From: Diprion similis
Taxonomy: Eukaryota > Arthropoda > Insecta > Hymenoptera > Diprionidae
Direction of reading: 5' to 3'
Length of the DNA stretch: 64,000 bases
NCBI RefSeq assembly: GCF_021155765.1
Contig: NC_060118.1
Location: 1,488,001-1,552,000 of the forward strand
Made by a program: the position numbers and the translations under genes. Below, one piece after another: positions 2,562-43,844 of the stretch. Under the pieces are notes generated by a model, which had not been told where the DNA came from, did not search any database, and was given only the letters and a program-made list of their open reading frames with translations. How positions within the stretch are numbered: the first letter of the stretch is position 1; every line of letters starts with the position of its first letter.

Positions 2562-2637
2562 GTATTTTGGTCGCCGAGTAAAATATAACATATACTACAG
2601 TTTGAAACCGGGGTATTTATAGGAAATATGGTCGATC

Positions 2638-3348
2638 ATGTCCAAGATGCGGTTTGAGGCACAACCTACTAAGCTTCCCATGATAAATTTCGAAAAACTT
2701 TCAGAGCAAAATGTGAAAAGACAAAAACGGCATGGGGAATCACTTTCGAACAGTGTGCGTGCAATATTCTGCGGTCCGGCCAATTGTGGTAAAACTAATG
2801 CGGTGCTCACACTTATAACCCACCCCAATGGACTTAGATTTGAAAATATCTATATCTACTCAAAATCCCTTAACCAACCGAAGTACCAATTGCTGAAGCA
2901 ATTGTTGGACAACGTTGAGAATATGGAGTATTTTCCTTATACCGAGCGTGAGCAAGTGATTACACCGGACGAAGCACGACCCAACTCGATAATCGTTTTT
3001 GATGATGTAGCGTGCGAGAAGCAGGACAATATTAGAGCCTACTTCTGCATGGGCAGGCATCACGATGTTGATTGTTCCTATCTCTGTCGGACGTACGCGC
3101 GTATTCCTGAACATCTCGTGCGTGACAACGTAAACTTACTCGTGTTATTCAAACAAGACGATATGAACCTGAGACACGTATACAACGACCATGTGAACAC
3201 CGGTATGTCTTACATACAGTTTGAAGATGTGTGCTTCGCATGCTGGAACGGTGATAAGTACGGGTTTCTTGTGATCGACAGAGACAGCGAGCCCAACCAT
3301 GGACGTTATAGGAAGGGATTTGATTTTTTCAGTAGCCTGGAAAAGTAA
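2638..3348 (+). CDS. Polinton genome-packaging ATPase (FtsK-HerA/A32 type)
   Basis: An intact 236-residue ORF. A short N-terminal tail (SEQNVKRQKRHGESLSNSVR) precedes a P-loop at residues 46-53 (GPANCGKT). The Walker B strand is NSIIVFDDVA at about 117-125. Later motifs include CMGRHHDVDCSYLCRTYARIP and NLLVLFKQDD. These match the A32-like packaging ATPase shared by Polintons, adenovirus-like and poxvirus-like DNA viruses, which would pump the element genome into a capsid. The homologue in Polinton B (42.7-43.0 kb) is a remnant. Uninterrupted, so possibly still functional as a protein. Confidence 0.9.
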   Translation: MSKMRFEAQPTKLPMINFEKLSEQNVKRQKRHGESLSNSVRAIFCGPANCGKTNAVLTLITHPNGLRFENIYIYSKSLNQPKYQLLKQLLDNVENMEYFPYTEREQVITPDEARPNSIIVFDDVACEKQDNIRAYFCMGRHHDVDCSYLCRTYARIPEHLVRDNVNLLVLFKQDDMNLRHVYNDHVNTGMSYIQFEDVCFACWNGDKYGFLVIDRDSEPNHGRYRKGFDFFSSLEK

Positions 3349-3759: not shown

Positions 3760-4308
3760 ATGATGAGAGATGAGACGAGAAAAAGTGAATTCGATAACGT
3801 ATACGGTGTACGCAACCTCTCAACTGGACTAATGATTGGTGATTCGTTGATGAGTTTTGGGAGTGACCAGATCCGTATTAGGAGTTCGGTTTACCCAGAA
3901 ACGGAGGGGTTGCTGGAACTTTCGTTCAGAAAGGAGCCCGACAGGTCCAATGTGAGCGACAAAGATCGGGAAAATTATAGAAACATAATCCTCAAAACGA
4001 ACGCACATAAAAAGTATTACTCATCCGATGGAGCTGTTCGAAGCGATAACAGTTACAAATTGAGAAATGTCATTGCCGAATAGTTGGATTATTCACCATC
4101 GCCTCAGCGAAAGGGTAAAGGTCTATTTCCGCAAGCTATGATCACACGACAAGGCGTTGAAACGGAATACGTTTTCTGGGATAATCCAAATGAGTTAGTG
4201 GAGCGTCTTCGTCTAGTCCTAGCATCCCAGGCAGCGGGAAATCCGAGTCACAACAACGAAATAATGTCCATTATCGAAGAACTACGCGAAGCAGAAATCA
4301 TTTATTAA
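3760..4308 (+). pseudogene. Conserved Polinton protein (YPETEGLLELSF family), one amber stop
   Basis: One reading frame codes 182 residues, broken only by TAG at 4081-4083. The N-terminal part has NVYGVRNLSTGLMIG and YPETEGLLELSFRKEPD. The stop falls between LRNVIAE and DYSPSPQRKGKGLFP. The C-terminal part ends with IEELREAEIIY. I know this protein as a frequent companion of ATPase and integrase in animal Polintons; its function is unknown to me. A decayed copy of the same C-terminus is readable in Polinton B near 42.4-42.65 kb. The frame remains clean on both sides of the stop, so the mutation is recent. Confidence 0.7.
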
Positions 4309-4341
4309 GCCGCTCTTATCGCTTTTGCATCCATTTTCGAG

Positions 4342-4743
4342 ATGAGCGTCGATGTGTTCGGACGGCATCTGGATAAAAACACAGCTGCGGGTAATCGCGG
4401 CCCTTCCGGTGTCGGATTTCAAATCACTGCGGACGGACATTAAGATCTACGGAATAAAAGACTGTGCAATGTCGCAGAACCTGTTGAGCAAAACAATGCT
4501 GTAACTTTGAAAATCTTACGACGAAAATTCAACGTGCTGCAAAAACAAATCGACAATCTCGATCAAATGATCAAAGCTTTGGAGATCAGGACGGGGAAAG
4601 CTTTGAATACCTTCTACGCAGATTTCAAAACAGACAGAGACCTGTCGATTCGAAACGCTGAAATCATTTCCAAATTGGACACCAGACTAAGAGCATTGGA
4701 ATATGAACGAGAAAAAGCTAACGCTGGTGACGGAACTGCATGA
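4342..4743 (+). pseudogene. Fibre-like Polinton protein with coiled coil, one ochre stop
   Basis: Starting at the ATG at 4342, the frame gives DVFGRHL, then a GPSGVGFQITADG segment, an in-frame TAA at 4441-4443, then NKRLCNVAEP and a heptad-like region (LKILRRKFNVLQKQIDNLDQ). Short glycine-containing heads followed by coiled coils resemble virion fibre or spike proteins, but that role is inferred. The 3' end overlaps the start of the integrase by 41 nt in another frame. A matching fragment occurs at about 42.1-42.35 kb in Polinton B. Confidence 0.6.
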
Positions 4744-5629
4744 GCCCGCCCGCCGGAATTACCAGCGTCGCCGTGTAGACGTGCGCGGCATCGACGAGAC
4801 CTGGCAGGTGGATCTTGTTGATATGATGTCATACGCAGGACAAATCAAAGGCTACAAGTATATGCTCACAGTCATTGATATCTTTTCAAAGTATGCGTGG
4901 GCTGTACCGATAAGGAGCAAGTCCGGGGATGATGTTACAAAGGCCATGGAATCTGTGCTAACTCAAGGACGTGTACCGAAAAAATTACACGTTAATAGAG
5001 GAACGGAATTCTACAACTCAAAATTTGAAACTCTTCTGTCACGCTATGGAATCAAACTCTACTCCAAGTACAGTAATTTGAAGGCTTCGATCTGTGAACG
5101 GTTTAATCGTAAGCTGAAAAGTAAAATGTGGAAACGGTTCAGTATGCAAGGAAGCTACAAGTGGCTCAACATCTTATCTGATTTAGTATCGGCTTATAAC
5201 AACACGAAACACCGAACCATAAGAATGAAACCATCGGATGTCACCGTTGCGAACGAAAGGCTGGTATTACGTCAGTCGTACGGAGGGCTTGGAACGAAAC
5301 CTTTCAAACCGGCAAAGTTCAAAACCGGTGACAAAGTTCGAATCAGCAAATTCCAAAACGTCTTTGAGAAAAGTTACACTCCCAATTGGACGACTGAAAT
5401 ATTCACAATAAGCCAAGTAGCAAATACCAATCCTGTGACGTACAAGCTCAAAGACTACCAAGGTCAACCCATCGCTGGTGGTTTCTACGAACAGGAGCTT
5501 CTCAAGTTGCGACATCCGGACATCTATCTGGTGGAGAAGGTGCTTCAGAAGCGGGAAAGAAAGTTTTACGTCAAGTGGCTAGGTTTTGATACTACACACA
5601 ACAGTTGGCTAAATGAATCTGATATGTAA
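4703..5629 (+). CDS. Polinton integrase with C-terminal chromodomain
   Basis: A continuous 308-residue ORF of the retroviral integrase (rve) fold, which in Polintons inserts the element DNA. It starts with the usual ELHEPARRNYQRRRV segment. The catalytic core begins at WQVDLVDM (D37). The second catalytic position lies in LHVNRGTEFYN, where the conserved aspartate is asparagine (N98). The glutamate is in SICERFNRKL (E132). The C-terminus DIYLVEKVLQKRE...FYVKWLGFD is a chromodomain, which can steer integration to modified chromatin. In Polinton B the matching site reads VDRGT, so the N is private to this copy and probably inactivating. Convergent with PolB. Confidence 0.9.
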   Translation: MNEKKLTLVTELHEPARRNYQRRRVDVRGIDETWQVDLVDMMSYAGQIKGYKYMLTVIDIFSKYAWAVPIRSKSGDDVTKAMESVLTQGRVPKKLHVNRGTEFYNSKFETLLSRYGIKLYSKYSNLKASICERFNRKLKSKMWKRFSMQGSYKWLNILSDLVSAYNNTKHRTIRMKPSDVTVANERLVLRQSYGGLGTKPFKPAKFKTGDKVRISKFQNVFEKSYTPNWTTEIFTISQVANTNPVTYKLKDYQGQPIAGGFYEQELLKLRHPDIYLVEKVLQKRERKFYVKWLGFDTTHNSWLNESDM

Positions 5630-5680: not shown

Positions 5681-8600
5681 TTAGAGATACAATTCATACC
5701 GATGTTCAGTTCGACTGCAGGTCTTGTAGCCCCACGGCAGAGTATCGGTTGTGTTTCGAAATACGATACGCTTATCGTCGTTCCAGCTCAGTGCTACTTT
5801 TTTCTGTTCATTGGTATAGACCTGATGCTTCTGACTCTGTATTAGACTCTGACGTTCGACTGAAATTTCGTGTTCTCAAGCACACTTCAAGTTATCATTG
5901 AAGGTTATAGTTTTTAACAGGGATCCTTTGACACCCTTGGCTCGTTTTTCATCCTTATCCTCCCCCATCACTCTGAATGAGTACAACTTCGCTCTCAAGC
6001 CAATAAATTCCACCATTATTTTTCTGTTACACTCATATTTCATCAGACCCAGAACTTTTTTGTGAACCAACGGAATTTCGTAGATGTTGTCAGGTGGATA
6101 ATCGGAGGTATCAAATTTATCCAAGTCCTGTTTGATGCATTCGTAAATGTTGGGGACGGTAATGTGATATATCACACTATCCGTGTCAGTGTACATTAAT
6201 TTTGCCTGATGCCCAAAACTTCGTTTCAATATACTTGTAGTGAAAATCGTAGATAAAGGTCTTCGCAAGATCTAAAATGGAAGAACCTGCATACAATGGT
6301 TTGTTGACTTTGACTGTCGTTCTACGCAATTCAACTATTATCATATCTTTATCAAAGATTGTACAACTGTGGAAATTTGGTTTGGCTATAGTAGCTCTAG
6401 CACCGTATTTTCCATCCCATTTCGTGATCAGCCTGACATCTCTATACTTCCTAACATTTTCCATTGTCTTACCGAAAACTGCGTTGTTCATCAGTTTATA
6501 GAAGTTTTTTTCGAATTTATTGTTTGATTTTTTGCGTAAGTGTGTATTTAAATCTATGTACTTTTTGAGCCACGGTGTTTGTCTGAACTTTGAAACTCTA
6601 TATATTCTAGCTAGTTTTAAACTTAATTCTAAGCATTGTTTCAAGACGCGGTAATGAACAACGTAGTTTTGCTTGGAAAGTAGCGTGGTCGTCAATTTCG
6701 GCTGCTTACTTTCTAAGATAGGAGGTATGTAGCGTTCCGGACACAGTGATAAATCTTTATGCATTTCATGCAGTTCCTTGGGATATTCCAAATCTACCTG
6801 TAATAAGTAGCTAAACTCCGCTTCGTCTGTGATGGCAAAAACATCGAATTGTCTGAAATCTAATATCCATTCGAGAGAACTGCATGGTAGAGCAAAGCTC
6901 ATAGCCGCGCCGTACAAGTTGTTAACGTCGAAGTACATGAGATAAGACTCTTCGAGCGCTGTATTGAAAGCATCTCTCATGTATCTATTGTTAGCCTTTG
7001 CATATCGGTTAGAGCATTGGGACACACCGCCTCGAATACCTTTTTCTATAAACATAAGCATATCTATGTCAGTGAGAAGCTCGAGCTCGATACCGGTACA
7101 TTTTAACATTGCGTCAAACGAAAGACCGGGCGCTGTAGAATAATGTAACGGGTCCAGGTTGTATGTTGCATAACAATTTTGTCGAAAGTTTTCAAAATCG
7201 TCAGCCAACAGAAAAACATCAGTTTGCAAATGTAAGTCTGAATATTCCCCCATCGTTTTTAGGTTAAAAGCTTGCCAAACTTTACACGCGTGTGCGTCAT
7301 CGTTATCCGAAATATCTTGGTTGTTCAATTTTGAATAACATCTTTCTTTAGGTGGTAACTTTACGTTCTCGAGCTTCTCCCAACCATCCATGTACTCGTA
7401 CGGAAAAACATCTTTCCTGGTCAATAACTCGAATTTTCAAGAGCTAGTGCAAAATTTACGTGTAATTGATTTTTAATTATCATTCAAATATGTTGCCAAT
7501 TTTTCGAGACTGCTGGGCATAAAACGGAACGAATCTAGAAATCTAAACTTCATATCTGTCCCTTTACATGTTTTGTGAACGAAATGTACTTTTCTTTGTT
7601 CACGGGTAGAAGCTGAATAGTACCCTAAAAAGTTGTGGCCAATGCTCTAATCAAAAAATGCGAATCGTAACCCGACAGATTGTGGAATATCACTGGGAAA
7701 GTATGCGAGTTTTGATAATTACGATTACAGCTTTGATGCGCAGGACCACGGTACCTTCCTGTGAAATGACAGTGATCACGGTGTTTCGCGTCTTCGCGCG
7801 TGAACGGCTTTTCAGAAATATGACATACCTTTGATAAATTAAATTCGTCAATTTGATTGAAGTTCAGCGACTCTATAGGTACAATAGTTCTGAAATACGT
7901 TCCTAACGAGTGTGCCAATGTCTCCAACTCGTTCACAAACCATTCGATGCAAGTCTCCCCGCGATTAATTTTGAACTTTGAATTGGAATCGTTAAAGGTG
8001 CAATGCAGGTAAAATGCTATACTGTAAGGAATATGATTTTGGTAAATTGTTCTATTTTCTGACACTTGAATGTTAGTAGCTTGCAACAAGCATTCTAGAT
8101 CCGCGTAAATACAGAACGGAACGGTTTCTTTGTGCCTAAAATTTTTGAATTCCAGAATCTCTTCCTCTTCCTCGGGTAAAACAACTTTGGTGTCGTTTAA
8201 ACTTATGCAATAAACTCTATGGTTCGCCATACATCTTTCAGATTGGAAGTGCATCAGACATCTACCACACAACCAGATACGAGGATGGTGCTTAGAAATT
8301 TGAGAACTTGTCAAGCGTGATAAATTGCGAATCTAAGCAAAATGAAAGATTCTATTTTTTTTCACAATATTCCGTATCAATATCATCGTCATCGTCTGTA
8401 ATTTCGGTTTCCACTGCCAAGAGATGAATTACGGGTTTATCAGACTTATTCTGACTCAAGTGAATCGGTACTATTTCATTTTTTTCCCCACCATCTTGGT
8501 CTACACCATAAACATTGATGGAAAGTCCGTTGAGTTTTTCAAATTTCGAAATAGTATTTTTATCTAGAGACGTGAGAAAGTTTATACTGTCATACCGTAG

Positions 8601-29620: not shown

Positions 29621-31712
29621 ATAGATGAATCGAAATATATTAATTTAACACGTGGTGCTGTATGGTCAGACACCGAACGGGTCTCGCCTAGTTCTGCGGT
29701 ATGATGACGACGCTACGCACCTACAGCTTAGAAATCGAAGAGGGGGAACTTCGTGACGACACATGTCGTGATATTGTGAGATTGAGGGGAATCAAAATCC
29801 GTGACAACTTCAATCAAATTAACGAATTTGATTTATCAAAGATATGTCACATTTGTGAAAAGCCGTTCACGCGCGAAGACGTGAAACACCGTGATCACTG
29901 TCATTTCACAGGAAAGTACCGTGGTCCTACTCATCAAAGCTGTAATCTTAATTATCAAAACTCGCATACTATATCAGTCATATTCGACAATTTGTCGGGT
30001 TACGATTCTCATTTTTTGATTATAGCATTGGCCACAACTTTCCAGGTTACTATTCAGCTTTTACCCGTGAACAAAGAAAAGTACATTTTATTTACAAAAC
30101 ATGTCAAGGGGACAGATATAAAGTTTAGATTCATAGATTCGTTCCGTTTTATGCACAGTAGCCTCGAAAAATCGGCAACGTATTTGAATGATAATCTAAA
30201 AGCAATTACACGTGAATTTTGCACTAGCTCTGAAAAATTCGAGTTATTAGCCAGCAAAGGTGTTTTTCCGTATGAGAACATGCATGGTTGGGAGAAGCTC
30301 GAGGACGTAAAGTTACCACCTGAAGAAAAATTTTATTTTATATAACGATTACGCACACGCGTTAAAGGTTTGGCATACTTTTAATCTTTAAACGTTGGGG
30401 GAATATTCAAGCTTATATTTGTGAACTGATGTTTTTCTGTTGGCTGACGTTTTTGGAAACTTTCGACAAAGTTGTTATGCAACATGCAGCCTGGACCCCT
30501 TACATTATTTTACAGCGCCCGGTCTTTCGTTTGACGCAATGTTGAAATGTACCGGTATTGAACTCGAGCTTCTCACTGACATAGATATGCTCATGTTTAT
30601 AGAAAAAGGTATTCGAGCTGGTGTGTCCCAATGCTGTAAGCGATATGCAAAGGCTAACAATAGACACATGGTAGCTGCTTTCAATCCAACGCTAGAAGAG
30701 TCTCATCTCATGTACTTTGACGTTAACAACTTGTACGGTGCGGCTACGAGCTTTGCTCTGCCATGCAGTTCTTTAGCATGAATATTAGATTTCAGACAAT
30801 TTGATGGTTTTGCAATCACAGACGAAGCGGAGTTTGGCTACATATTAGAGGTAGATTTGGAATATTTCGAGGCACTGCATTATATGCATAAAGATTTATC
30901 ACTGTGTCCGGAACACTACATACCTCCCATCTCAGACAGTAAGTAGCCGAAATTGACGACCACGCTACTTTCCAGGCAAAACTACGTTGTTCATTACTGC
31001 GTCTTGAGACAATGCTTAGAATAAGGTTGAAAACCAGCTAAAATTCAAAGAGTTCTCAAGTTTAGACAAACACTTTGGCTCAAAAAATACATAGATTTGA
31101 ATACGGATTCACAAAAAAAATCAAACAATGAATTCGAAAAAAACTTGTACAAACTCATGAACAACGCAGTTTTCGGTAAGACAATGGAAAATGCCAGGAA
31201 GTATAGAGATGTCAGGTTGATCACGAAATGGGATGGAACATACGGTGCTAGAGCTACTATAGCCAAACTAAATCTCCACAGTTGTACAATCTTTGATGAA
31301 GATATGATAATAGTTGAATTTCGTAGAACAACTGTCAAACTCAACAAACCATTGTATGCAGGCTTTTCCAGTTCAGATTTTTCGAAGACCTTCATCTACG
31401 ATTTCCACTACAAGTATATTGAAACGAAATTTGGACATCAGGCAAAATTAATGTACACTCACACGGATAGTTTGATATATCACTTCACCGTCCCCAACAT
31501 TTACTATTGCATCAAACAGGACTTGAATAGATTTGACACCTCCGATTATCGATCTGATAATATCTACGGAATGCCGTTGGTTAGCACAAAAATTCTGGGT
31601 TTGATGAGAGATGAGTGTAACGGAGAAACAATTACGGAATTTATTGGTTCGGGAGCGGACGTATTCATTCAGAGTGATGGGGGAGGATAAGGATGAGAAA
31701 CAAGCGAAGGGT

Positions 31713-33357: not shown

Positions 33358-34236
33358 GAAAAGTCGTCCCGACTCGAGTAAATCGTGACAATATAAAAAC
33401 GATCCAGTAGTCAACGCTCCAAGGTGAGTCGCAGACATTGGCTCTAAAAATTTGAAGACTCCCTTCTTACTACCTGGCATTCGCCCACAGTCTCAAGGTA
33501 AACCATAGAAAACCTTGAGCAGATAGCCGAGCAATATAGCCAAAATCCAATATTTTTACATTATTCTGTCACATGGGTTTATCGTGTTAGTGTAAAAGTG
33601 TTATGTAATCCTCTTCATGTAAAAATCCAAGGGTGTCACAGGATCCGGGAAATCAGGGAGGACTCGAGCGGAAGTCCAAAAGAGATCCTGGAGTTTTGAT
33701 ACCACCACTGGGAAAAGGCGGAGGAAAGGTGGTGGGCCGGTTCTGGGATTTCTCCGAGAACAGCACACCCTAGATTGGGAGGACAGACGTGAGCAATGGT
33801 GATCGTACATTCCAAATTCGTTCAAAGAATTTAGTTGAAGAAAGATTCATTAATAAAGATCGTTATCAAATCACTAAACGTTTATTTCTAATAAAAGAAA
33901 AGAAACGATCTTATCTGAATCTGGAGAAGAAAAACCCGGCTCGTCGATCACCAGTCGTCCTCGGGAATAGAGAAAGGAATCACGGGAAAGATGTTGTGAC
34001 AGGAAACATGAAAATGCTTACGAAATCTGACACAAGGGTTAATAAAATACGAAAAGCATTCAATCGCTTGTCGACCTCGAAAAATAATAGTGGCTGTTTT
34101 CACTTCGTTAATCTCATCAAAGCCTACCGATTCCAAAGCTTCATCTACGAAGAAAAAGCTTCTAGAAAGAAACAAGATCAAAAGAAATCAAATGAAGAAA
34201 GCAAAATCAACGTTGCGTTTCTTAGTAGATTTAGAC
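33358..34236 (-). other. 3' region of the left Gypsy copy, possible small ORF
   Basis: Downstream of the kinase, the minus strand has TTGTTTCTTTCTAG, a good splice-acceptor-like sequence, followed at once by an open frame to 33948 that encodes FFVDEALESVGFDEI and RGRQAIECFSYF. The acceptor-like sequence is conserved in the right copy near 40750-40765. Another patch shared by both copies encodes SRLSSQSRVC (33.78 kb and 41.13 kb). The polypurine tract and LTR expected after this are missing. Confidence 0.35.
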
Positions 34237-34929
34237 TTATACACGCTTTAATTGGATAGAATTATAGAAATTTTCATAAACTTGATCAGCGGAGGCTTCA
34301 GCGTCTATGATCATAACGGGGGCAGGTAAGGAAGAAAATTTTCCTTTAACTAGCCATTCTTCGTGGACTTCATGAAGAGTTCTGAGCAACTCAAAAGAAA
34401 CTCTGAGTTCTTCTTCTCGTGAGCGAGAAGAGACTCGAGCAAAACAAGTCTCAGGGAAAACTCGAAGATAAACAATCAAATCAGCTCCGAGTCCTAACGC
34501 TTCAATAAGGAGAGCGGAATTCCTGTTGAGTAAATGAGACTCGAAGTCTCGAAAATTTCTCAATCTACGACGAGCTTCGATAAAACAATTGCTACTATAA
34601 ATTGATCTCTCCATCACTTTAACAGGAAGAGAGGTTATTTGAAGATGTCTATTACACATAACCTGTTGGACGTGGTTTTGAAATTGATAACAAAAGCGAT
34701 CCGGGTCTCCGTACATCAAATCGAGTAGGTTAACCCCGGCAATATTACGATATTCATCTAGCGACTCTAACAAAGTACAAACCCGAGGATCGGCCAAAAA
34801 CCTTTTGGTGAAGGTTGTTTTTCCACATCCGATGTTTCCTTCGATGATGATTGTCAGAGGTCCTGTTTTCTTTAATGAGATTCCAAAAGGAAGGTTGCCT
34901 TTCCAATCAATGACGAACTGGAAGAGAGG
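34237..34929 (-). CDS. dNK: Deoxynucleoside kinase captured by the Gypsy element
   Basis: The frame is open for 231 codons after a TAG at about 34930-34932 and has no ATG before the P-loop. Features of the Drosophila-type dNK/thymidine kinase 2 family are all in order: P-loop EGNIGCGKTT (about residues 30-39), the acidic residue in TLLESLDEYRN, GVNLLDLMYGDP, the substrate-site motif VMERSIYS (about 106-112), ADLIVYLRV, the arginine-rich lid RVSSRSREEE and LHEVHEEWLV, with the C-terminus APVMIIDA. Such enzymes phosphorylate deoxynucleosides for dNTP supply. It lies 33 nt behind pol in the same frame, separated only by the pol TAA and this TAG. No intron is seen. Expression could need readthrough or splicing. 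Confidence 0.9.
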   Translation of the reverse strand, partial: PLFQFVIDWKGNLPFGISLKKTGPLTIIIEGNIGCGKTTFTKRFLADPRVCTLLESLDEYRNIAGVNLLDLMYGDPDRFCYQFQNHVQQVMCNRHLQITSLPVKVMERSIYSSNCFIEARRRLRNFRDFESHLLNRNSALLIEALGLGADLIVYLRVFPETCFARVSSRSREEELRVSFELLRTLHEVHEEWLVKGKFSSLPAPVMIIDAEASADQVYENFYNSIQLKRV

Positions 34930-34962
34930 CTAAATTTGTTTCGGTTGACGGAAGAAATTCTC

Positions 34963-37668
34963 TTAATGTCTAACCTTGTTAGACGTTCCGGTCCTTGGTG
35001 AGTCTGATTCAGGTTGATGTCCATCTTCGAACGGAGCAAGGCGGTCGAGGTGTACAACTTTTGCCTTACTATGAGGGCCTTTTCGGATTCTATAAACAAC
35101 ATCGTTTATCCGGTTAACCACCTGGTAAGGACCTTCACAGTTTCGTTGTAATTTTGGGCATCGTCCTTTCTGCCTTCTTGGTTGAAATAACCAGACGGAA
35201 TCTCCGGGATTAAACTTTAAACCCCTGGCTCGCATATCGTAACGAGCTTTAAGCCTATCTGAAGCTATAGAAATTCTATTTCTTGCAAAGTTGTGAATTT
35301 CTTCTAGACGTCGCTGTAAATCGGAGGCATAATCTGTCTGAGGTGATGATTGTACGGAAACAGGGCCTTTTTCTAAATCCACGGGGAGTCGGAGTTTCTT
35401 TCCCGTAAGCATACAAGCGGGCGTCTGTTTTTTCGTCTCGTGAATCGCAGATCTATAAGACAGGAAGAAAAAGGGAATCCAGGTATCCCAATCTCTCTGA
35501 TTCTGTTCTACGAAGGACGACAAATATTGGAGTAAAGTTCTATTTAGACGTTCTATCATGCCGTAAGACTGAGGATGGAGGGGAGTAGTACGAGTTTTTC
35601 TAACCCCTAAAATTTGAGTAACTTCTTTCATTAAGCTTGACTCAAAATTTCGGCCCTGATCGGTGTGAAGTTCTAGTGAAACTCCGTACCTGCAGATGAA
35701 TTCTCTAACGAACGCCTGTGCTACAGTGGAGGCTTCTTGATTACTTATTGGGACCACTTCTGGCCACTTGATAAAGTAATCGGCGATAACCAGAGCGTAT
35801 TTATTCCTTTCGTAGGTGGTAGAAAGAGGACCGAGGATGTCCATCACTGCCCTTTCGAAAGGAGCTCCCACGTTGTATATTTGAAGAGAGCTCTGTCCTC
35901 TAGCTCGGGGTCCTTTCTTCGCCGTGCAGATTTGACATTTTCTGCACCAGTCTTCGACGTCTGTCCAGCAGTGTGGCCAAAAGTAACGGTCGCGTATCCT
36001 GCCCAGAGTCTTGTTCGAAGCGAAGTGTCCACCTGTAGAAAAATCGTGATGGAGTGCAAGAATCTCTGGTACTCTGATCCTGGGAACCAGAAGTTACCAC
36101 TTGATCTCACTCAAGTCTGCGGATTCCCATTTTCGGTATAAAATTCCATTTATCAAAGCGATGGAGTCCCACTGAGCTCAATAAACTTTTAGGTCCGGTC
36201 CAGCTGGGGATATTTCCTGCCGTTCCCGACGAGTCCCCGTTTCTTTCCAGGACTTTAATTGGGTTAGAGTCGTATCTTCTTGCTGTGATATTCTCCAGTC
36301 TTCTAGGTCCCCTCCGAGTGTAATGCCTCGAATTAAACAAGGAGGGTTTCGATATTTCTCCAGTCTTGCACACTGTCTGCAATATGGCGTGTCTTCGCAA
36401 GTGTCTTCGCAAGTTCTTCTTGAAAGGGCGTCCGCGTTCGCATGTTGCAGTCCAGCTCGATGTTTGATGTCGAAATCATACTGACCGAGTCTCTCTAACC
36501 AACGAGCTACCCGGCCTTCGGGCGACTTGAACGAAAGCAACCATTTCAATGAAGCATGGTCTGTTCTAACAAGAAATCGCCTACCGTACAAGTAATGGTG
36601 GAAATGGACTACTGTTTTAACGACGGCTAAAAGTTCTCGACGGGTAACGCAGTAGTTCCTCTCAGCCTTGCTAAGAATCCTGCTAAAATAACAAATCACG
36701 CTTTCTAGACCTCCTTGAACCTGTGACAGAACCCCACCTATCCCTGAAAGTGAAGCGTCAGTATCTAAAATAAAAGGAAGATTGACTTCAGGATAAGCTG
36801 ATATAAGTGAAGAGGTTAACCAAATTTTCAGCTTTTTGAAGGCTTCTTCGCACTCGGGCGTCCAATCGAAGGGAGTCTTTAGTCCCGTTAGATGATGAAG
36901 AGGTTTCGCTACGGAGGCGAATCCTTTTACAAATCTTCTATAATAAGTGCAGAGTCCCAAAAAGCTCTGTACCTGTTCTTTGTTGACAGGCGTTGGCCAG
37001 GAAGAAACTTTTTCGATTTTTGACGGGTCAGTCTTCACTCCGTCAGCTGAGACGATGTGTCCAAGGAAGCTGACTTCTCGCTGGAACATATGGCACTTTT
37101 TCGGACTCATTTTCAAGCCTGCGTGCTTCAGCCTGGCGAAAATTTCTTTAAGATTATGCATTTCTTTTGTGAAGTCCCTGCCGAAGACGATTATGTCGTC
37201 TAGATAGACGAGGCAAATTTTCCCGATGAGTCCATGGAGGATAGCCTCCATCATCCGTTCGAAGGTAGCCGGGGCGTTACTCAAGCCAAATGGCATTACC
37301 TTGAACTGCCATAGTCCTCCTAAACCCGTAACGAAAGCTGTCTTCTCTTTGTCGGAAGAGTCCATCTCGACCTGCCAGTACCCACTCTGGAGGTCTATGG
37401 TGCTGAACCAATTGGCGCCAGCAATCAGGTCGAGAGTTTCGTCCATCCTGGGTAAAGGAAACAAGTCTTTCTTCGTAATATTATTCAGCTTCCGGTAGTC
37501 GATACAAAATCGTTTCGATCCATCTTTTTTGTTGACTACGACAATCGGAGAAGCCCAGGGGCTGGACAAAGGTTCAATAACGTCGTTCGCCAGCATGTCT
37601 TCCACCAGCTTCTTCACCTCCTCCCGGAGATGTACGTCGGTAAAACACAAGATCGACCTCGGAGGCAA
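34963..37668 (-). pseudogene. pol: Gypsy pol, left copy: RT, RNase H, integrase, one nonsense
   Basis: The N-terminal piece (37668-36178) has RT motifs DYRKLNN, FSTIDLQSGYWQ, MPFGLSNAPATF, catalytic VYLDDIIVF, then RNase H with ILDTDASLSGIGG and TDHASLKWLL. A TGA at about 36178 replaces a tryptophan (KVY-stop-AQWDS; the right copy has W). The same protein continues with a zinc-binding HHCC region, integrase core MDILGPL, ELHTDQGRNFES and IERLNRTL, and GPYQVVNRINDVVYRIR. It ends with TAA just before the kinase frame. Gag and protease are absent. Confidence 0.9.
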
Positions 37669-37720
37669 TCCTCCAATTTAACAAGCTCCCCGGAGGCTCG
37701 CCCTTAACGGCAGGGAGGAA
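37669..37720. other. Head-to-head junction of two Gypsy copies
   Basis: Outward from this point both strands encode REEVKK within a few codons, preceded by PPRS on one side and APRR on the other, the same place in RT. Breakpoints in the two copies therefore nearly coincide. Confidence 0.7.
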
Positions 37721-40354
37721 GTGAAGAAATTCGTTGAAGATATGCTGACCAACAACGTAATCGAGCCTTCTTCCAGCCCCTGGGCTTCTCCGATCGTCCT
37801 GGTCAACAAAAAGAACGGTTCCAAGCGATTTTGCATAGAATACAGGAAGCTGAACGACATAACCAAGAAGGACTCCTATCCTCTCCCCAGAATCGACGAA
37901 ACGCTCGATCTGATTGCTGGCGCAACCTGGTTCAGTACCATTGATCTTCAGAGCGGTTACTGGCAGGTCGAGATAGATCCCCTGGACAAGGAAAAGACAG
38001 CCTTTGTCACGAGACTAGGAGCATTATGGCAATTTAAGGTAATGCCTTTTGGCTCAAGTAACGCCCCGGCTACCTTTGAACGGATGATGGAGACTGTTCT
38101 CCAAGGACTCACAGGGAAAATTTGCCTCGTTTATTTGGACGACATAATCGTCTTCGGGAAGGACTTTGAGGAAGAAGTGGACCACCTTGAACAAGTTTTC
38201 TCCAGGTTAAAACAGGCAGGCCTAAAGATGAGTCCAAAGAAATGCCATCGGTTCCAGAAAAAAGTCAGCTTCCTCGGCCACATAGTCTCCGCTGAAGAAG
38301 TAAAGACCGATCCCTCCAAGATCGAAAAGGTCTCTGCTTGGCCGAACAAGGAGCCAGTTCAACGCTTTTTGGGCCTCTGCACCTATTACAGAAGATTCGT
38401 AAAAGGTTTCGCCACGATAGCCAAGCCCCTGCATCGTCTCACAGGAATCCAGATTCCATTCGCCTGGACTCCGGAATGCGAAGAAGCCTTCGAGAAATTA
38501 AAAGAAAATCTTACTTCTTCCCCGATTTTAGCCTATCCGGAGGTCGGACTCCCTTTTATTTTAGATACAGACGCCTCTTTGTCAGGGATAGGCGGAAACT
38601 TGTCACAGATTCAGGAAGGTCGAGAGAGAGTAATTAGCTATTACAGTAGAGTCCTTAGTAAAACCGCGAGAAACTATTGTGTTACTCGTAGGGAACTCTT
38701 AGCTGTTGTTAAAACCGTAGTCCACTTTCATCATTACTTGTACGGGAGGAAGTTCTTGATTAGAACAGACCATGCTTCTTTGAGGTGGTTACTTTCGTTT
38801 AAATCCCCCGAAGGTCAGGTAGCTAGGTGGACTGAGAGGCTCGGACAGTACGATGTCGAAATTCGTCATCGAGCAGGTTTACAACATGGAAACGCTGACG
38901 CTCTTTCTCGAAGGCTCTGCGAAGAAACGACAGATTGTAGGCAATGCACTCGCCTTGAAAAATACAGAGATCCTCCTTCTATAATACGGAAGATTTCTCT
39001 TGGAGAAAACCTCGAAGATTGGAAACGATCTCAACAAGAAGATTCTACTCTGTCACAAGTTAAATCTTGGAAAGAAGCGGAAACTCGCCCAGACTGGCAA
39101 GAAATATCCTCAGCTGAGTCTGATGTCAAAATTTACTGGGCTCAATGGGACTCTATTCTTTTAATAAACGGAATATTATACCGCAAATGGGAATTAGCGG
39201 ACTTGAAAGAGATCAAGTGGCAGCTTTTGGTTCCCAGAAATCGAGTTCCAGAGATTCTTGCTTTTTACCATGATTCTCCTGCAGGTGGACACTTTGCCTC
39301 GAATAAAACTTTAGGCAAGATACGCGACCGTTATTTTTGGCCTCGTTGTCGTGCTGACGTGGAAGACTGGTGTCGAAGATGTCAAGTCTGCACGTCGAAG
39401 AAAGGACCTCGAGATAAAGGACAAAGATCTCTCCAAGTTTACAACGTGGGAGCTCCTTTCGAAAGGATAGCAATGGATATCCTCGGTCCTCTTCCTACAA
39501 CCTACAGTGGAAATGAATACGCTTCAGTCATCGCTGATTATTTTACCAAGTGGCCCGAAGTATTTCCACTCGCCAGTCAGGAAGCCTCTACCGTAGCTCA
39601 GGCGTTCGTTAAAGAGTTTATCTGTAGGCACGGAGTACCTTTAGTAGTACATACTGACCAGGGCCGAAATTTTGAATCGAGTTTAATGAAGGAGGTCACT
39701 CAGATTTTAGGGGTTAGGAAAACCCGGACGACTCCCCTCCATCCTCAATCTGACGGCATGATAGAGCGTTTGAATCGGACTTTACTGCAGTATTTGTCGT
39801 CTTTCGTCGAACAGAATCAGAGAAATTGGGACACCTGGATCCCCCTTTTCCGCTTATCTTATAGATCTGTGATCCACGAGACAACGAAACGGGCGCCAGC
39901 TTTCATGCTCACAGGGAGAAATCTTCGACTTACGTCAGATTTAGAGAAAGGCCCTGTTCCCGTGCAAACACAACCCCAGACAGATTATGCTTCTGATTTA
40001 CAACGACGCCTAGAAGAAATTTATAATTTTGCAAGGGAAAGAATTTCTATGGCTTCGGATAAGTTACAAGCTCGCTACGATATACGAGCTAGAGATTTAA
40101 AATTCAATCCCGGAGATTCTGTCTGGCTTTTCCAACTAAGAAGACAGAAAGGACGATGTCCGAAACTCCAACGAAACTGGGAAGGCCCTTACCAGGTGGT
40201 TAACCGGATAGACGATGTTGTTTATAGAATCCGAAGAGGCCTTCACACAAAAGCAAAGGTCGTTGACCTAGACCGGCTTACTCCTTTCAAAGATGTACAT
40301 CAGTCTGAATCGGGCTCACCGAGGGCTGGAACATCTAATGAGGTTAAACATTGA
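37721..40354 (+). CDS. pol: Gypsy pol, right copy: RT, RNase H, integrase, open
   Basis: An uninterrupted 877-residue ORF. RT: FCIEYRKLND, FSTIDLQSGYWQ, MPFGSSNAPATF and catalytic VYLDDIIVF (about residues 136-144). RNase H: ILDTDASLSGIGG (about 275) and RTDHASLRWLLSF. Zinc-binding N-terminus of integrase: HDSPAGGHF...CRRCQVC (about 515-560). Integrase core: MDILGPLPTTY, VHTDQGRNFES and IERLNRTL with D, D and E present. GPF/Y module: WEGPYQVVNRIDDVVYRIR. The 5' part of pol, protease and gag are missing, so the element cannot move by itself. About 85 percent similar by eye to the left copy. Confidence 0.9.
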   Translation: MKKFVEDMLTNNVIEPSSSPWASPIVLVNKKNGSKRFCIEYRKLNDITKKDSYPLPRIDETLDLIAGATWFSTIDLQSGYWQVEIDPLDKEKTAFVTRLGALWQFKVMPFGSSNAPATFERMMETVLQGLTGKICLVYLDDIIVFGKDFEEEVDHLEQVFSRLKQAGLKMSPKKCHRFQKKVSFLGHIVSAEEVKTDPSKIEKVSAWPNKEPVQRFLGLCTYYRRFVKGFATIAKPLHRLTGIQIPFAWTPECEEAFEKLKENLTSSPILAYPEVGLPFILDTDASLSGIGGNLSQIQEGRERVISYYSRVLSKTARNYCVTRRELLAVVKTVVHFHHYLYGRKFLIRTDHASLRWLLSFKSPEGQVARWTERLGQYDVEIRHRAGLQHGNADALSRRLCEETTDCRQCTRLEKYRDPPSIIRKISLGENLEDWKRSQQEDSTLSQVKSWKEAETRPDWQEISSAESDVKIYWAQWDSILLINGILYRKWELADLKEIKWQLLVPRNRVPEILAFYHDSPAGGHFASNKTLGKIRDRYFWPRCRADVEDWCRRCQVCTSKKGPRDKGQRSLQVYNVGAPFERIAMDILGPLPTTYSGNEYASVIADYFTKWPEVFPLASQEASTVAQAFVKEFICRHGVPLVVHTDQGRNFESSLMKEVTQILGVRKTRTTPLHPQSDGMIERLNRTLLQYLSSFVEQNQRNWDTWIPLFRLSYRSVIHETTKRAPAFMLTGRNLRLTSDLEKGPVPVQTQPQTDYASDLQRRLEEIYNFARERISMASDKLQARYDIRARDLKFNPGDSVWLFQLRRQKGRCPKLQRNWEGPYQVVNRIDDVVYRIRRGLHTKAKVVDLDRLTPFKDVHQSESGSPRAGTSNEVKH

Positions 40355-40390
40355 GAGAATTTCTTCTGTGAACCGAGACGAATATAACCT

Positions 40391-40766
40391 CTCTGCCTGT
40401 CAAGTTATGGAGAGATCGATTTTTAACGACAATTGTTTTATTCAAGTTCGTTGCAAATTAGGAAATTTTTGAGACTTTGAGTCTCATTCACTCAGAGAAA
40501 ACTCTGCTCTCCTCGTGCAAGTGTTTAAACTCAGAGTAGATCTCGTTGTTTATTTGCGAGTTTCCTCAAAAATCTCTTATTTTCGGATCTGTTCCCGTGT
40601 ACGTGAGAAAGAAACAGAGATTACTTTGGAGTTGCTTCGAACTATTCATGACGTTCATGAGGATTGGTTAGTTAGAGAAAAATTTTCTTCTTCACCTGCT
40701 CCCGTTCTAGTTTTAAAACGCCGAACTTTAGATTTTGTTTCCTTCCTCGATTTTGTTTCTTTCTAG
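40391..40766 (+). pseudogene. Deoxynucleoside kinase remnant of the right Gypsy copy (P-loop half deleted)
   Basis: After the pol stop the sequence matches the left copy (ENFF... and a second stop), then jumps directly to VMERSIFNDNCFIQ, skipping roughly 300 bp that hold the P-loop. A TGA at about 40470 follows, then FESHSLRENSALL, VDLVVYLRVSS, RICSRVREKE, LHEVHEEWLV-like IHDVHEDWLV and SSSPAPVLVL. Without the P-loop it cannot bind ATP. Its presence shows the kinase was already part of the element before the two copies separated. Confidence 0.85.
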
Positions 40767-41638
40767 AAAATTCTTCTATTGAATCGAGTTTTGTGTCGGA
40801 CCGGCTCTGATTTATTCAGAGTCTGAATGGAGCCACGATTATTATTTTTCATGGTCGGTAAGCGATTATTTGATTTTCGCGTTTTCCTAACCCATGTGTC
40901 AGTTTTTGTCAGCACTTTTTCAGGTTGCTTTATCACACAACTCCGTTTTCCTCTAACCTCTCCTGGAACCTGAGGATGACTGAAGGCCCCGATTTTAATG
41001 AAGCACTGAACATTAATCCAGATAACATCGTTTATTTTCTCTCTTTCAAATGAAAATAAAATCTATACAATCCATGCTGTTCCCAAATTCGCTTAGCGAA
41101 TTCGGATTCGTCTGCCTTCACTCACGTCTGTCCTCCCAATCTAGGGTGTGCAGTTTCCGAAAGAGTTCAGGACCGGCTCGCCTCCTTTCCCCTCCCTCGT
41201 TCCCGAAGGTTGAGAAGAGGCCCCAAAAGCTTCCTAAGGCCACCGTCGATTTTGGACTCCTATTGGAACCTCTCCTGTCCCCCGTGGTACTTTTCCGGAT
41301 CATTTCGGGTCGATTTGGGTTTTCCTGATTTCCGGAATTTGGAAACTGGTCGCTCCTTCGAATTTCACACGAAGCTGTACACTACACACTTTTACACTGA
41401 CCTTTGTGAAAACAAGGCACATAAAATTTTGGAAATTCAGTTCAATGCTCGACTATCTGCTCAAGGTTTTCTGTGGTTTACCTTGAGACTGTGGGCAAAT
41501 GCCAGATAGTAGAAAGGGAGTCTTTGAATTTTTAGAGCCACAGCTCCGACTCACCTTTGAGCACCGTCTGCTAGATCAGGATCACTATTGTTTCAATTTG
41601 TACGAGTCGGGACGACTCTTTTCCTCAGGGGGGAGTAG
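40767..41638 (+). other. Long 3' region of right Gypsy copy with polypurine tract
   Basis: Non-coding or decayed. Ends with a purine tract AGGGGGGAG at 41627-41635 immediately before the LTR. Blocks such as CAAGGTTTTCTGTGGTTTAC also occur, inverted, at about 33500 in the left copy. Confidence 0.6.
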
Positions 41639-41845
41639 TGTTACAAAGGGTAAAATCACCCGTTTTACCCCCCTTTCAAATGATCTAGAAGTCGGCTTGT
41701 GACGCAAGAAGTATAAGCGTTCTCATGTTAACAAATGAAGAGGATTGCTGCGTCAACCGCTATTATTGTAAAAACAGTCCTGTTTCAGACTTGAAACAAG
41801 AAACACATATTGCCATTAAAGCATTTTTTCTCCAAATATTTTACA
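41639..41845 (+). repeat. 3' LTR of dNK-bearing Gypsy, 207 bp
   Basis: Starts TGTTACAAAGGG directly after the polypurine tract and ends ATATTTTACA. TG...CA ends and position support an LTR; no partner LTR remains because the 5' end is deleted. The following 40 bp up to the integrase fragment are unexplained filler. Confidence 0.65.
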
Positions 41846-41853
41846 TAGCACCG

Positions 41854-42084
41854 TTAACAAAGCTCACGTACCCACATTTTATTTGAAACGCGAGTCCGTT
41901 TCAATATCAATGACCGTGAGCATGTACTTATAGCCTTCGTTTTGCCCAATATATACGATATCATATCAGCAAGATCCGCCTGCCAGGTCTCGTCGATGCC
42001 GCGCACGTCTACACGGTGACGTGTGTGATTCCAGCATGCAAGTTTATGTAGTACCGTCACCAGCGTGAGCTTTTTCTCGTTCAT
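41854..42084 (-). pseudogene. Polinton B integrase, N-terminal part
   Basis: The minus strand encodes NEKKLTLVTVLHKLACWN, RRVDVRG-like RHRVDVRGIDETWQADLADM with the first catalytic aspartate, and SLILK at the break. Corresponding sequence in Polinton A continues without interruption through VIDIFSKYAWAVP. A small deletion shifts the frame near the end. Confidence 0.75.
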
Positions 42085-43065: not shown

Positions 43066-43844
43066 ATGATCATGTACCGAGGTAATCGAAGCAACAAGCG
43101 ACGACATCGTGGTAAGGGTCTAGTGAAAACAGCCTTCCATTCGAATTGCACGTGCCTGGTTATCAGTACTGTGGACCTGTTACTGACTTATCAAAGAGAC
43201 TCGCGCGAGGTGATCCGGGAATCAATCCTTGCAACACAGCTTGCAAGAACCATGACATTGCTTACTCGCAGAATCGTGAAAATCTTGAAGTCAGGAACGC
43301 GGCTCATAGAGTGTTGGCTGAAAAAGCTTGGAAACAGGTTTTCGCACCAGACGCCAAATTAAGTGGAAAAGCAGCAGCTTGGGCAATAGCTAACACAATA
43401 AAAGTTAAATCAAAAGTTGCGATGGGAATTCGAAAACCGAAAAACGTGACCTTAAGAAATATTATGAATGCTGCAAAACGATCCATGATTTCAAGCAACG
43501 ATGCAGTAGAAGCTATCGAGTCTGCGCTCAAGGGAGCCGAAAACGCTATTCGAATAGCGGGTGGTAAATGTGAAGTGGAAACACCGCACATTCTACCGAT
43601 ACCGTCAAAAGTTGATGGATTTCTACGATTACTGATTCCCATTTTCGCTGGACTTAGTGCCACTGGCGCGATAGCTGGTGGTGCGGCAGGTATAGTAGAA
43701 GCTGTGAATGATGCGAGCGCTGCTAAACGAGAACTGGAGGAGAGCGAACGGCACAACAAAACTATGAAAGCTATCGCGTTTGGCAAAGGGCTTCATTTGA
43801 AACCGTATGAAACGGGTCATGGTCTCCATTTTCCAAAAAACTAG
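43066..43844 (+). pseudogene. Minor capsid protein with parvovirus-type phospholipase A2 domain, one frameshift
   Basis: A basic start (RSNKRRHRGKGL) runs to about 43145, where a frameshift is needed to reach the rest. The PLA2 domain follows: calcium loop YCGPVTDL and catalytic HD in ACKNHDIAYS. The family consensus of the loop is GPGT; here the second Gly is Val. Further on, a Gly/Ala-rich hydrophobic segment (LSATGAIAGGAAGIVEAV) and a C-terminus with GKGLHLKPYETGHGL, reminiscent of adenovirus minor proteins. In parvoviruses such a domain acts in membrane passage; here that is inferred. Divergent from the ATPase. Confidence 0.8.

Follow-up and report, generated by a model that had tools for sequence, protein, structure and literature searches.

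A stretch of 64,000 nucleotides (nt) from the hymenopteran Diprion similis (contig NC_060118.1, positions 1,488,001 to 1,552,000; hereafter the window) carries an open reading frame (ORF) for a deoxynucleoside kinase (dNK) directly behind the integrase of a Ty3/Gypsy retrotransposon. Very probably, and as the best explanation of the data as a whole, a gypsy family captured an insect-type dNK and keeps it as a spliced third gene. This view rests on comparison among copies of the family, which shows linkage of the kinase with the element, long terminal repeat (LTR) boundaries, purifying selection, intron sites with matching reading frames, and genomic copies of spliced RNAs. The original prediction, made from the letters of the window, had proposed a complete kinase as the cargo of a Gypsy element, where it could raise the supply of deoxynucleoside triphosphates (dNTPs) during cDNA synthesis.

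An insect-type kinase behind integrase

The kinase ORF in the window ORF list occupies 34237-34929 on the minus strand (230 amino acids, aa) and is preceded by the integrase ORF (34963-36093, stop codon included; H2C2, rve, and p58_C domains by Pfam), with a spacing of 33 nt and a shared strand and frame, as originally described. Its assignment to the dNK type is borne out by a match to Pfam dNK PF01712 (E 1.4e-40; residues 27-225 on profile positions 1-198 of 203), by insect dNKs as the nearest solved structures (about 1e-41), and by an AlphaFold2 model (predicted local distance difference test, pLDDT, 89.3; alignment of 32 sequences) whose best fold match is Drosophila dNK (Foldseek 2vp4, E 3.6e-18, template modeling score, TM, 0.79/0.91). 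The window copy retains G31, G34, and K37; E107, R108, and S109; and R165, R169, R171, and E174 (alignment A2), and we presume the customary roles for the P-loop, the ERS motif, and the lid arginines. The ORF is a genuine insect-type deoxynucleoside kinase. By analogy, it would phosphorylate deoxynucleosides, probably pyrimidines, presumably like Drosophila dNK. Not all copies are whole, as the P-loop is altered in L013 and L022.

The earlier description of this kinase as complete holds for its motifs but not for its start. The first methionine of the frame is residue 72, and no ATG lies ahead of the P-loop, a lack shared by 17 of 18 kinases compared; moreover, the first 4 residues of the reported frame fall inside an intron. 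The coding exon, predicted exon 3, accordingly spans 34237-34917 (minus strand; stop codon 34237-34239), as delimited by the PF01712 match, the acceptor position, the model, and its fold. Likewise, the claim that the kinase lies within a Gypsy element stands by virtue of family-wide linkage to integrase and LTRs, while the window copy itself is a fragment missing gag, protease (PR), and the 5′ LTR because it is cut at 37625, where a second copy joins it head to head. Being a fragment, it cannot act alone, and the case therefore rests on the family.

A dispersed gypsy family with a third gene

A search of the genome (269 Mb, 60 contigs; all genome counts are lower bounds) returned at least 84 kinase matches, of which 23, the window included, cover at least 188 of the 230 residues. 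Among the 20 of the 22 other long matches that were fetched, 17 have a long gypsy integrase match directly ahead of the kinase on the same strand; L010 and L021 retain the integrase tail alone, and L009 has no integrase match. Downstream of the kinase, an LTR match is found in 18 of the 20 (weak, at 68-71%, in L009, L012, L013, and L014, and partial in L010) and is absent behind the kinase in L021 and L026. Both LTRs are present in six of the nine copies whose upstream piece was examined, with 97.9-99.6% identity, and the L011 pair is 96.6% identical, giving seven copies in all with LTR pairs at 96.6-99.6%. The sequence ATAT flanks both ends in five of six LTR-paired copies; the family has the paired TG..CA LTRs and short target duplication that Ty3/Gypsy LTR retrotransposons display. 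TGGTGTCAGAA follows the LTR as a candidate tRNA primer site, and the L018 pol ORF (1140 aa) bears PR, reverse transcriptase (RT), RNase H (RH), and integrase (INT) domains in this order on one frame. At the gag-pol overlap, CTCAAAAAACTAGATTCAGATGA recurs in 8 of 20 loci, with A AAA AAC in an identical 23-nt context, and is a candidate frameshift signal. The best-kept copies read LTR, gag, the A AAA AAC site, PR-RT-RH-INT, a 64-nt intron, dNK, about 1.5 kb, and LTR. Because the same gene order recurs across the genome, the kinase is no chance neighbour. These arrangements point to a dispersed Ty3/Gypsy family of D. similis that carries a captured dNK as a third gene behind integrase, in the place that env takes in gypsy-type elements.

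Approached from the integrase side, 55 of 111 matches (at least 44% identity) were carried on and the 56 below 44% were left out. At 55% identity or more there are 49, of which 42 reach residue 280 or beyond of 376; the 7 without the 3′ part were set aside. In these 42, the kinase starts at or before the P-loop in 25 (its match begins within the first 40 residues; several are partial, one of them covering just residues 1-52), lacks its N-terminal half in 16, and is missing in 1; in one of the 16, the remnant is 2.9 kb distant (C11:14069134). The idea of a kinase carried as Gypsy cargo thereby withstands comparison with the other copies. The 16 matches show that a working kinase was lost in part of the family and is not strictly required in cis. 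For the six integrase matches at 44-46% identity, no kinase match lies within 3.5 kb.

Several structural variants occur alongside. L038 (C2:1503600-1512000) is a 3.5-kb element with LTRs at 4117-4403 and 7366-7652 (99.65% identical) that holds the end of gag and an N-half-deleted kinase remnant, with RT, RNase H, and integrase unmatched, and is apparently a young non-autonomous relative; many more kinase matches (residues about 104-226, no integrase near) appear to resemble it. In L009, a 380-bp direct repeat (86%; 4341-4720 and 7552-7931) that differs from the family LTR flanks the kinase. Kinase residues 193-221 are matched twice in L027 (5167-5253) and L028, overlapping the end of the main match, as a small duplication or frameshift would produce. 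Comparison of L010, L011, and L016 with L015 and L018 reveals the kinase of one subfamily joined to the intron type of another, and among close copies the C-terminus of the kinase takes either of two forms (...CKAMLTK or ...RLLSNLY); the mixed types and alternative ends may reflect recombination between copies, perhaps via template switching.

Selection on the kinase

The coding set comprised 17 fetched copies and the window (L016, L027, and L028, whose kinase match is split, were left out), and dN/dS was computed for 15 of these 18 kinases, or 105 pairs. In the 92 of 105 pairs with dS above 0.3, the median is 0.165 and the maximum 0.28. The 18 whole kinases contain 0.28 stops per 100 codons, with at least one stop in 8 of 18 copies; from residue 98 onward the density is 0.09. 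By comparison, the remnants of 15 N-half-deleted copies carry 2.99 stops per 100 codons, with at least one stop in 12 of 15 (15 of the 16 matches were counted; C11:14069134 was left out, its remnant being the distant one). Integrase in the same 15 copies has 0.25. The kinase hence decays after loss of the P-loop half while pol is kept, as the 2.99 and 0.25 stops per 100 codons indicate; Fisher values for the stop counts overstate independence, as the copies are related. The kinase is under strong purifying selection, and its active-site set is kept.

Two predicted introns and their products

The junction between integrase and kinase was aligned in 20 copies and the window (21 sequences). In all 19 copies retaining the donor (L009 is without the donor side), the interval starts AG/GTT and ends AG after a pyrimidine-rich stretch (slashes mark splice junctions), both splice sites fall in the same codon phase, and a pol-frame stop lies inside. 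The length of this mini-intron is 56-65 nt, with a remainder modulo 3 of 1 in 12 copies, 2 in 6, and 0 in 1, the window. There it measures 57 nt (34918-34974, minus strand; AACAAG/GTTAGA ... CTCTCTTCCAG/TTCGTC) and encloses the pol stop codon (34963-34965), so that the 33-nt gap between the two ORFs proves to be a portion of an intron. L021 lacks precisely this interval, and when the genome was searched for the junction expected after splicing, a single match with one mismatch was returned, at C8:9885368 between integrase and kinase (L042); its frame continues from integrase into a shortened kinase with a later stop. The splice regions also recur in gene models P0001 and P0003, P0001 with a different kinase acceptor; these models are possibly ab initio and were given little weight.

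A second, 4.3-kb intron is suggested by L021, in which the beginning of gag is joined directly to the integrase tail. Its donor would lie in gag (AAG/GTCTGT) and its acceptor in the integrase tail (TTTACAG/). The junction predicted from L021 (gag ...AAG/GATCCG...) has one genomic match, with three mismatches and zero control matches, in L010, where the last 22 nt of exon 1 are identical to the donor context of L016. Three genomic copies therefore appear without introns: L042 without the small one, L010 without the large one (the small one kept), and L021 without both. In the window, the acceptor GTTTATAG/ ends at 35090 and the C-terminal tail of integrase (34975-35089, minus strand, 115 nt) forms predicted exon 2 of a doubly spliced kinase mRNA; the acceptor motif is present in 18 of 21 oriented sequences. 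The spliced frame is correct in six of six copies measured: exon 1 runs 437-521 nt from the ATG to an end in phase 2, exon 2 adds 109 nt to give a total divisible by three, and the acceptor is followed by 224-226 kinase codons, with a stop in exon 1 in one of the six. Together, the L010 and L021 junctions and the six frames are consistent with a third ORF read from a spliced subgenomic RNA, as in errantiviruses, and the kinase appears to be expressed through splicing.

A single splice from a leader donor, as for env, was also considered, and GTGAGT or GTAAGT occurs in the untranslated leader of five of six copies. This candidate was rejected because joining there puts no AUG before the kinase, and because L010 and L021 use a donor inside gag.

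Three classes of product would follow. Unspliced RNA would give Gag and Gag-Pol; removal of the mini-intron would delete the pol stop and yield Gag-Pol-dNK; and removal of the 4.3-kb intron as well would generate a fusion of the Gag N-terminus, a 37-aa integrase tail, and dNK (GagN-dNK) of about 408-436 aa. Splicing would in this way allow translation of a kinase that lacks its own start codon. The Gag or Pol part might then bring the kinase into or near the virus-like particle, where an active enzyme could raise dNTP precursors for cDNA synthesis in places where they are scarce.

Origin and occurrence in another genome

The host dNK gene has three exons at a locus of its own (C2:13551797-13552701); its exons are 77-82% identical to Athalia dNK, and it groups with Athalia, away from the element kinases, in our trees. 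The kinase is thus not an intron-containing host gene beside which an element happened to land, a possibility raised at the outset, and the suggested tree with host genes upheld the distinction: in the second tree, a single clade (100/100), separate from every cellular dNK included, unites P0122 and P0002 with the element kinases. The first tree placed the element kinases beside a dNK from outside the insects used, with long-branch warnings. The second gave them no firm placement, and an approximately unbiased (AU) test rejected neither their union with Hymenoptera (p 0.255) nor that with Diprion and Athalia (p 0.237). A one-residue gap at SAR-CF (alignment A2) is shared by all 8 hymenopteran rows and by all 6 element-type rows that include the stretch (the window, L013, L015, L018, L022, and P0002; the stretch is missing from P0001), whereas none of the 17 other rows has it. 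We lean toward, but do not claim, a hymenopteran source of the captured kinase.

P0122, from another genome, is a protein of 952 aa with RT-RH-INT-dNK in one open frame; an intronless gene or a spliced transcript would fit equally. Identity is 64% in integrase; in the kinase it is 53% with the window kinase (150 residues) and 46% with Athalia dNK. The best match to P0122 in the D. similis assembly is 62% end to end and 67% over RT-RH-INT, and no copy there is near-identical. The arrangement therefore occurs in a second genome as well and probably predates D. similis. Scanning viral contigs with the kinase turned up no relative, and a search confined to proteins of about 520-1670 aa having words in common with the P0122 kinase returned just P0122 and P0241, a distant match without retroelement domains.

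Weighing the explanations

Several observations weigh against a functional, spliced third gene. The evidence for splicing is comparative, and the gag donor AAG/GTCTGT is, we presume, a weak match to the usual consensus. The L010 frame, which opens at the gag ATG and continues into the integrase tail, is interrupted by one stop in the gag part, and in L021 the gag part is now out of frame with the tail and kinase through decay. A reversed control pattern likewise gave one match for the mini-intron junction, yet the L042 match counts because it sits between integrase and kinase. L026, exceptionally, has a methionine four residues ahead of the P-loop. Near-identical pairs have dN/dS around 1 (L012-L013, 0.96; L018-L024, 1.13), which is expected for recent copies and lends no support. 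Two of the 16 N-half-deleted copies keep a pol frame of 1137 codons, so that pol can persist without a kinase in cis. P0122 ends inside its kinase. Finally, the single 120-aa ORF scanned in the 1.5-kb 3′ region drew a blank in Pfam.

As for what the gene does, we give somewhat less than an even chance to a nucleotide-salvage step of the element's own: the spliced dNK fusions would travel with the virus-like particle and feed cDNA synthesis in cells low in dNTPs. The dNTP-supply idea of the original prediction is consistent with an active-site set kept under purifying selection. Alternatively, the kinase may be a real, selected, and spliced element gene that acts mainly outside the particle, on whole-cell dNTP pools or through a non-enzymatic role of GagN-dNK, which we regard as unlikely. 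The doubly spliced RNA would leave the kinase without RT and without the greater part of Gag, and a dNK yields only deoxynucleoside monophosphates, which host kinases must complete. Against this, the retained Gag N-terminus and integrase tail suggest particle targeting, and the singly spliced form would link the kinase to Pol.

Other readings deny the gene its splicing or its element. One is stop read-through, frameshifting, or re-initiation behind pol, with the GT..AG boundaries coincidental; in the window, where the intron length is a multiple of three, reading through its stops would keep the frame. This is very improbable given that 18 of 19 introns are not multiples of three and all 19 contain pol-frame stops, that three genomic copies lack exactly the predicted introns, and that 17 of 18 kinases lack an ATG ahead of the P-loop. 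A fragment of a host gene or a processed dNK pseudogene, lying beside the element by landing or carried once and drifting, would accord with a truncated window copy, a host with its own dNK gene, and the 16 of 42 integrase matches without the kinase N-terminal half. Its strong form is refuted by the family-wide linkage, and the reading is very improbable in view of recurrence at many loci between integrase and LTR, dN/dS near 0.165, splice sites in 19 of 19, presence in another genome, and a clade apart from the Diprion host gene. That the kinase belongs to Polinton/Maverick-type DNA viruses scattered in the window, for which DNA polymerase B-like pieces speak (29692-31690 and 6186-8332; Pfam matches at 29692-30342 only, the rest by eye), can be dismissed, as elsewhere in the genome a gypsy integrase and a gypsy LTR enclose the kinase copies, and spliced junctions join the kinase to gypsy gag and integrase.

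Surroundings of the window copy

Upstream of its integrase, the window copy retains RT and RNase H (36181-37625, minus strand, truncated at 37625; Pfam and nucleotide map). Behind its kinase, pieces of the 3′ region that joins kinase and 3′ LTR in other copies are found at 33359-34236 (minus strand), where blastn of L016, L017, and L022 against the window gave no LTR match. The second family member lies on the plus strand, with a pol (RT-RH-INT) truncated at its 5′ end (37626-40354; Pfam and nucleotide map), a kinase remnant with in-frame stops whose N-terminal half and P-loop are deleted (40384-40719), and a 3′ LTR (41636-41907; blastn with the LTR of L011 at 88.7%, and with L017 and L022). 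The LTR alignment comprises 266 columns up to 41888, the family match extends to 41907, and this is the sole LTR match within the window. The two copies, which belong to different subfamilies, abut head to head at 37625/37626, and the cut falls at an identical position of RT in each.

The Polinton/Maverick-type pieces lie at 6186-8332 (minus strand) and at 29692-31690, 2623-3348, and 4691-5629 (plus strand). DNA polymerase B at 29692-30342 matches PF03175, just below the cut-off, and PF02945; the other polymerase, packaging-ATPase-like, and integrase-like ORFs were assigned by eye. An ORF of 242 aa at 43116-43844 (plus strand) with a YCGP..CNTACKNHDIAYS motif resembles, by eye, the phospholipase A2 domain of parvovirus or adintovirus capsid proteins.

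Comparison with known systems

A shortage of dNTPs limits reverse transcription in resting cells, which the host factor SAMHD1 exploits, and large DNA viruses counter this limit with kinases and reductases of their own. Among reverse-transcribing elements, the only answer from nucleotide metabolism known to us is dUTPase, which sanitizes the nucleotide pool, and our literature searches added no other. Should the salvage interpretation be correct, the kinase would be, to our knowledge, the first nucleoside kinase of an LTR retroelement. Retrotransposons could then address the dNTP limit, which would become testable in the insect germline; the two introns would tune the amount of kinase against genomic RNA; and family members without a working kinase would provide a natural comparison. 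The family is, in addition, a clear example of an LTR element that uses introns, the splice sites being preserved in genomic copies of the spliced RNAs. Searches of the open literature (PubMed Central, with subscription papers and preprints mostly outside it), some of them directed at other questions, found no retroelement reported to carry a nucleoside kinase, which does not imply that none is in print.

The element kinase shares with insect multisubstrate dNK (Drosophila dNK structures 1j90 and 1oe0; PF01712) the family, the fold, the P-loop GNIGCGKT, the ERS motif, and the lid R..R.EE. It differs in having no start codon of its own, in its predicted fusion by splicing to parts of Gag and integrase, in its own clade, and in a Tyr for Trp at the position aligned with what is presumably Trp57 of DmdNK.

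Among LTR elements, parallels exist for captured enzymes. According to the main text of PMC5408684, in which the word kinase is absent, bdelloid-rotifer LTR elements place a dUTPase between PR and RT and have captured GDSL esterase and DEDDy exonuclease as ORF3 enzymes. As with these and the retroviral dUTPases, an enzyme of nucleotide metabolism, or a captured one, resides in an LTR element (PMC5408684, in part); unlike dUTPase, the enzyme here is a salvage kinase that would add to the pool, lies behind integrase, and is predicted to be spliced.

Parallels likewise exist for expression. In gypsy and the errantiviruses, as described in part of PMC4276936, the order is gag-pol-ORF3, pol is frameshifted from gag, and the ORF3 env is made from a spliced mRNA. 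The kinase family has the same order, with ORF3 read from a predicted spliced RNA; its ORF3, in contrast, is a metabolic enzyme and not env, and a second, small intron would also permit an integrase-kinase fusion. The BARE1 element of barley, in the portion of PMC3735527 concerned, has a 104-nt intron in its gag RNA that decides which proteins are made, splicing removing pol expression. In the D. similis family, unlike BARE1, splicing would add the kinase.
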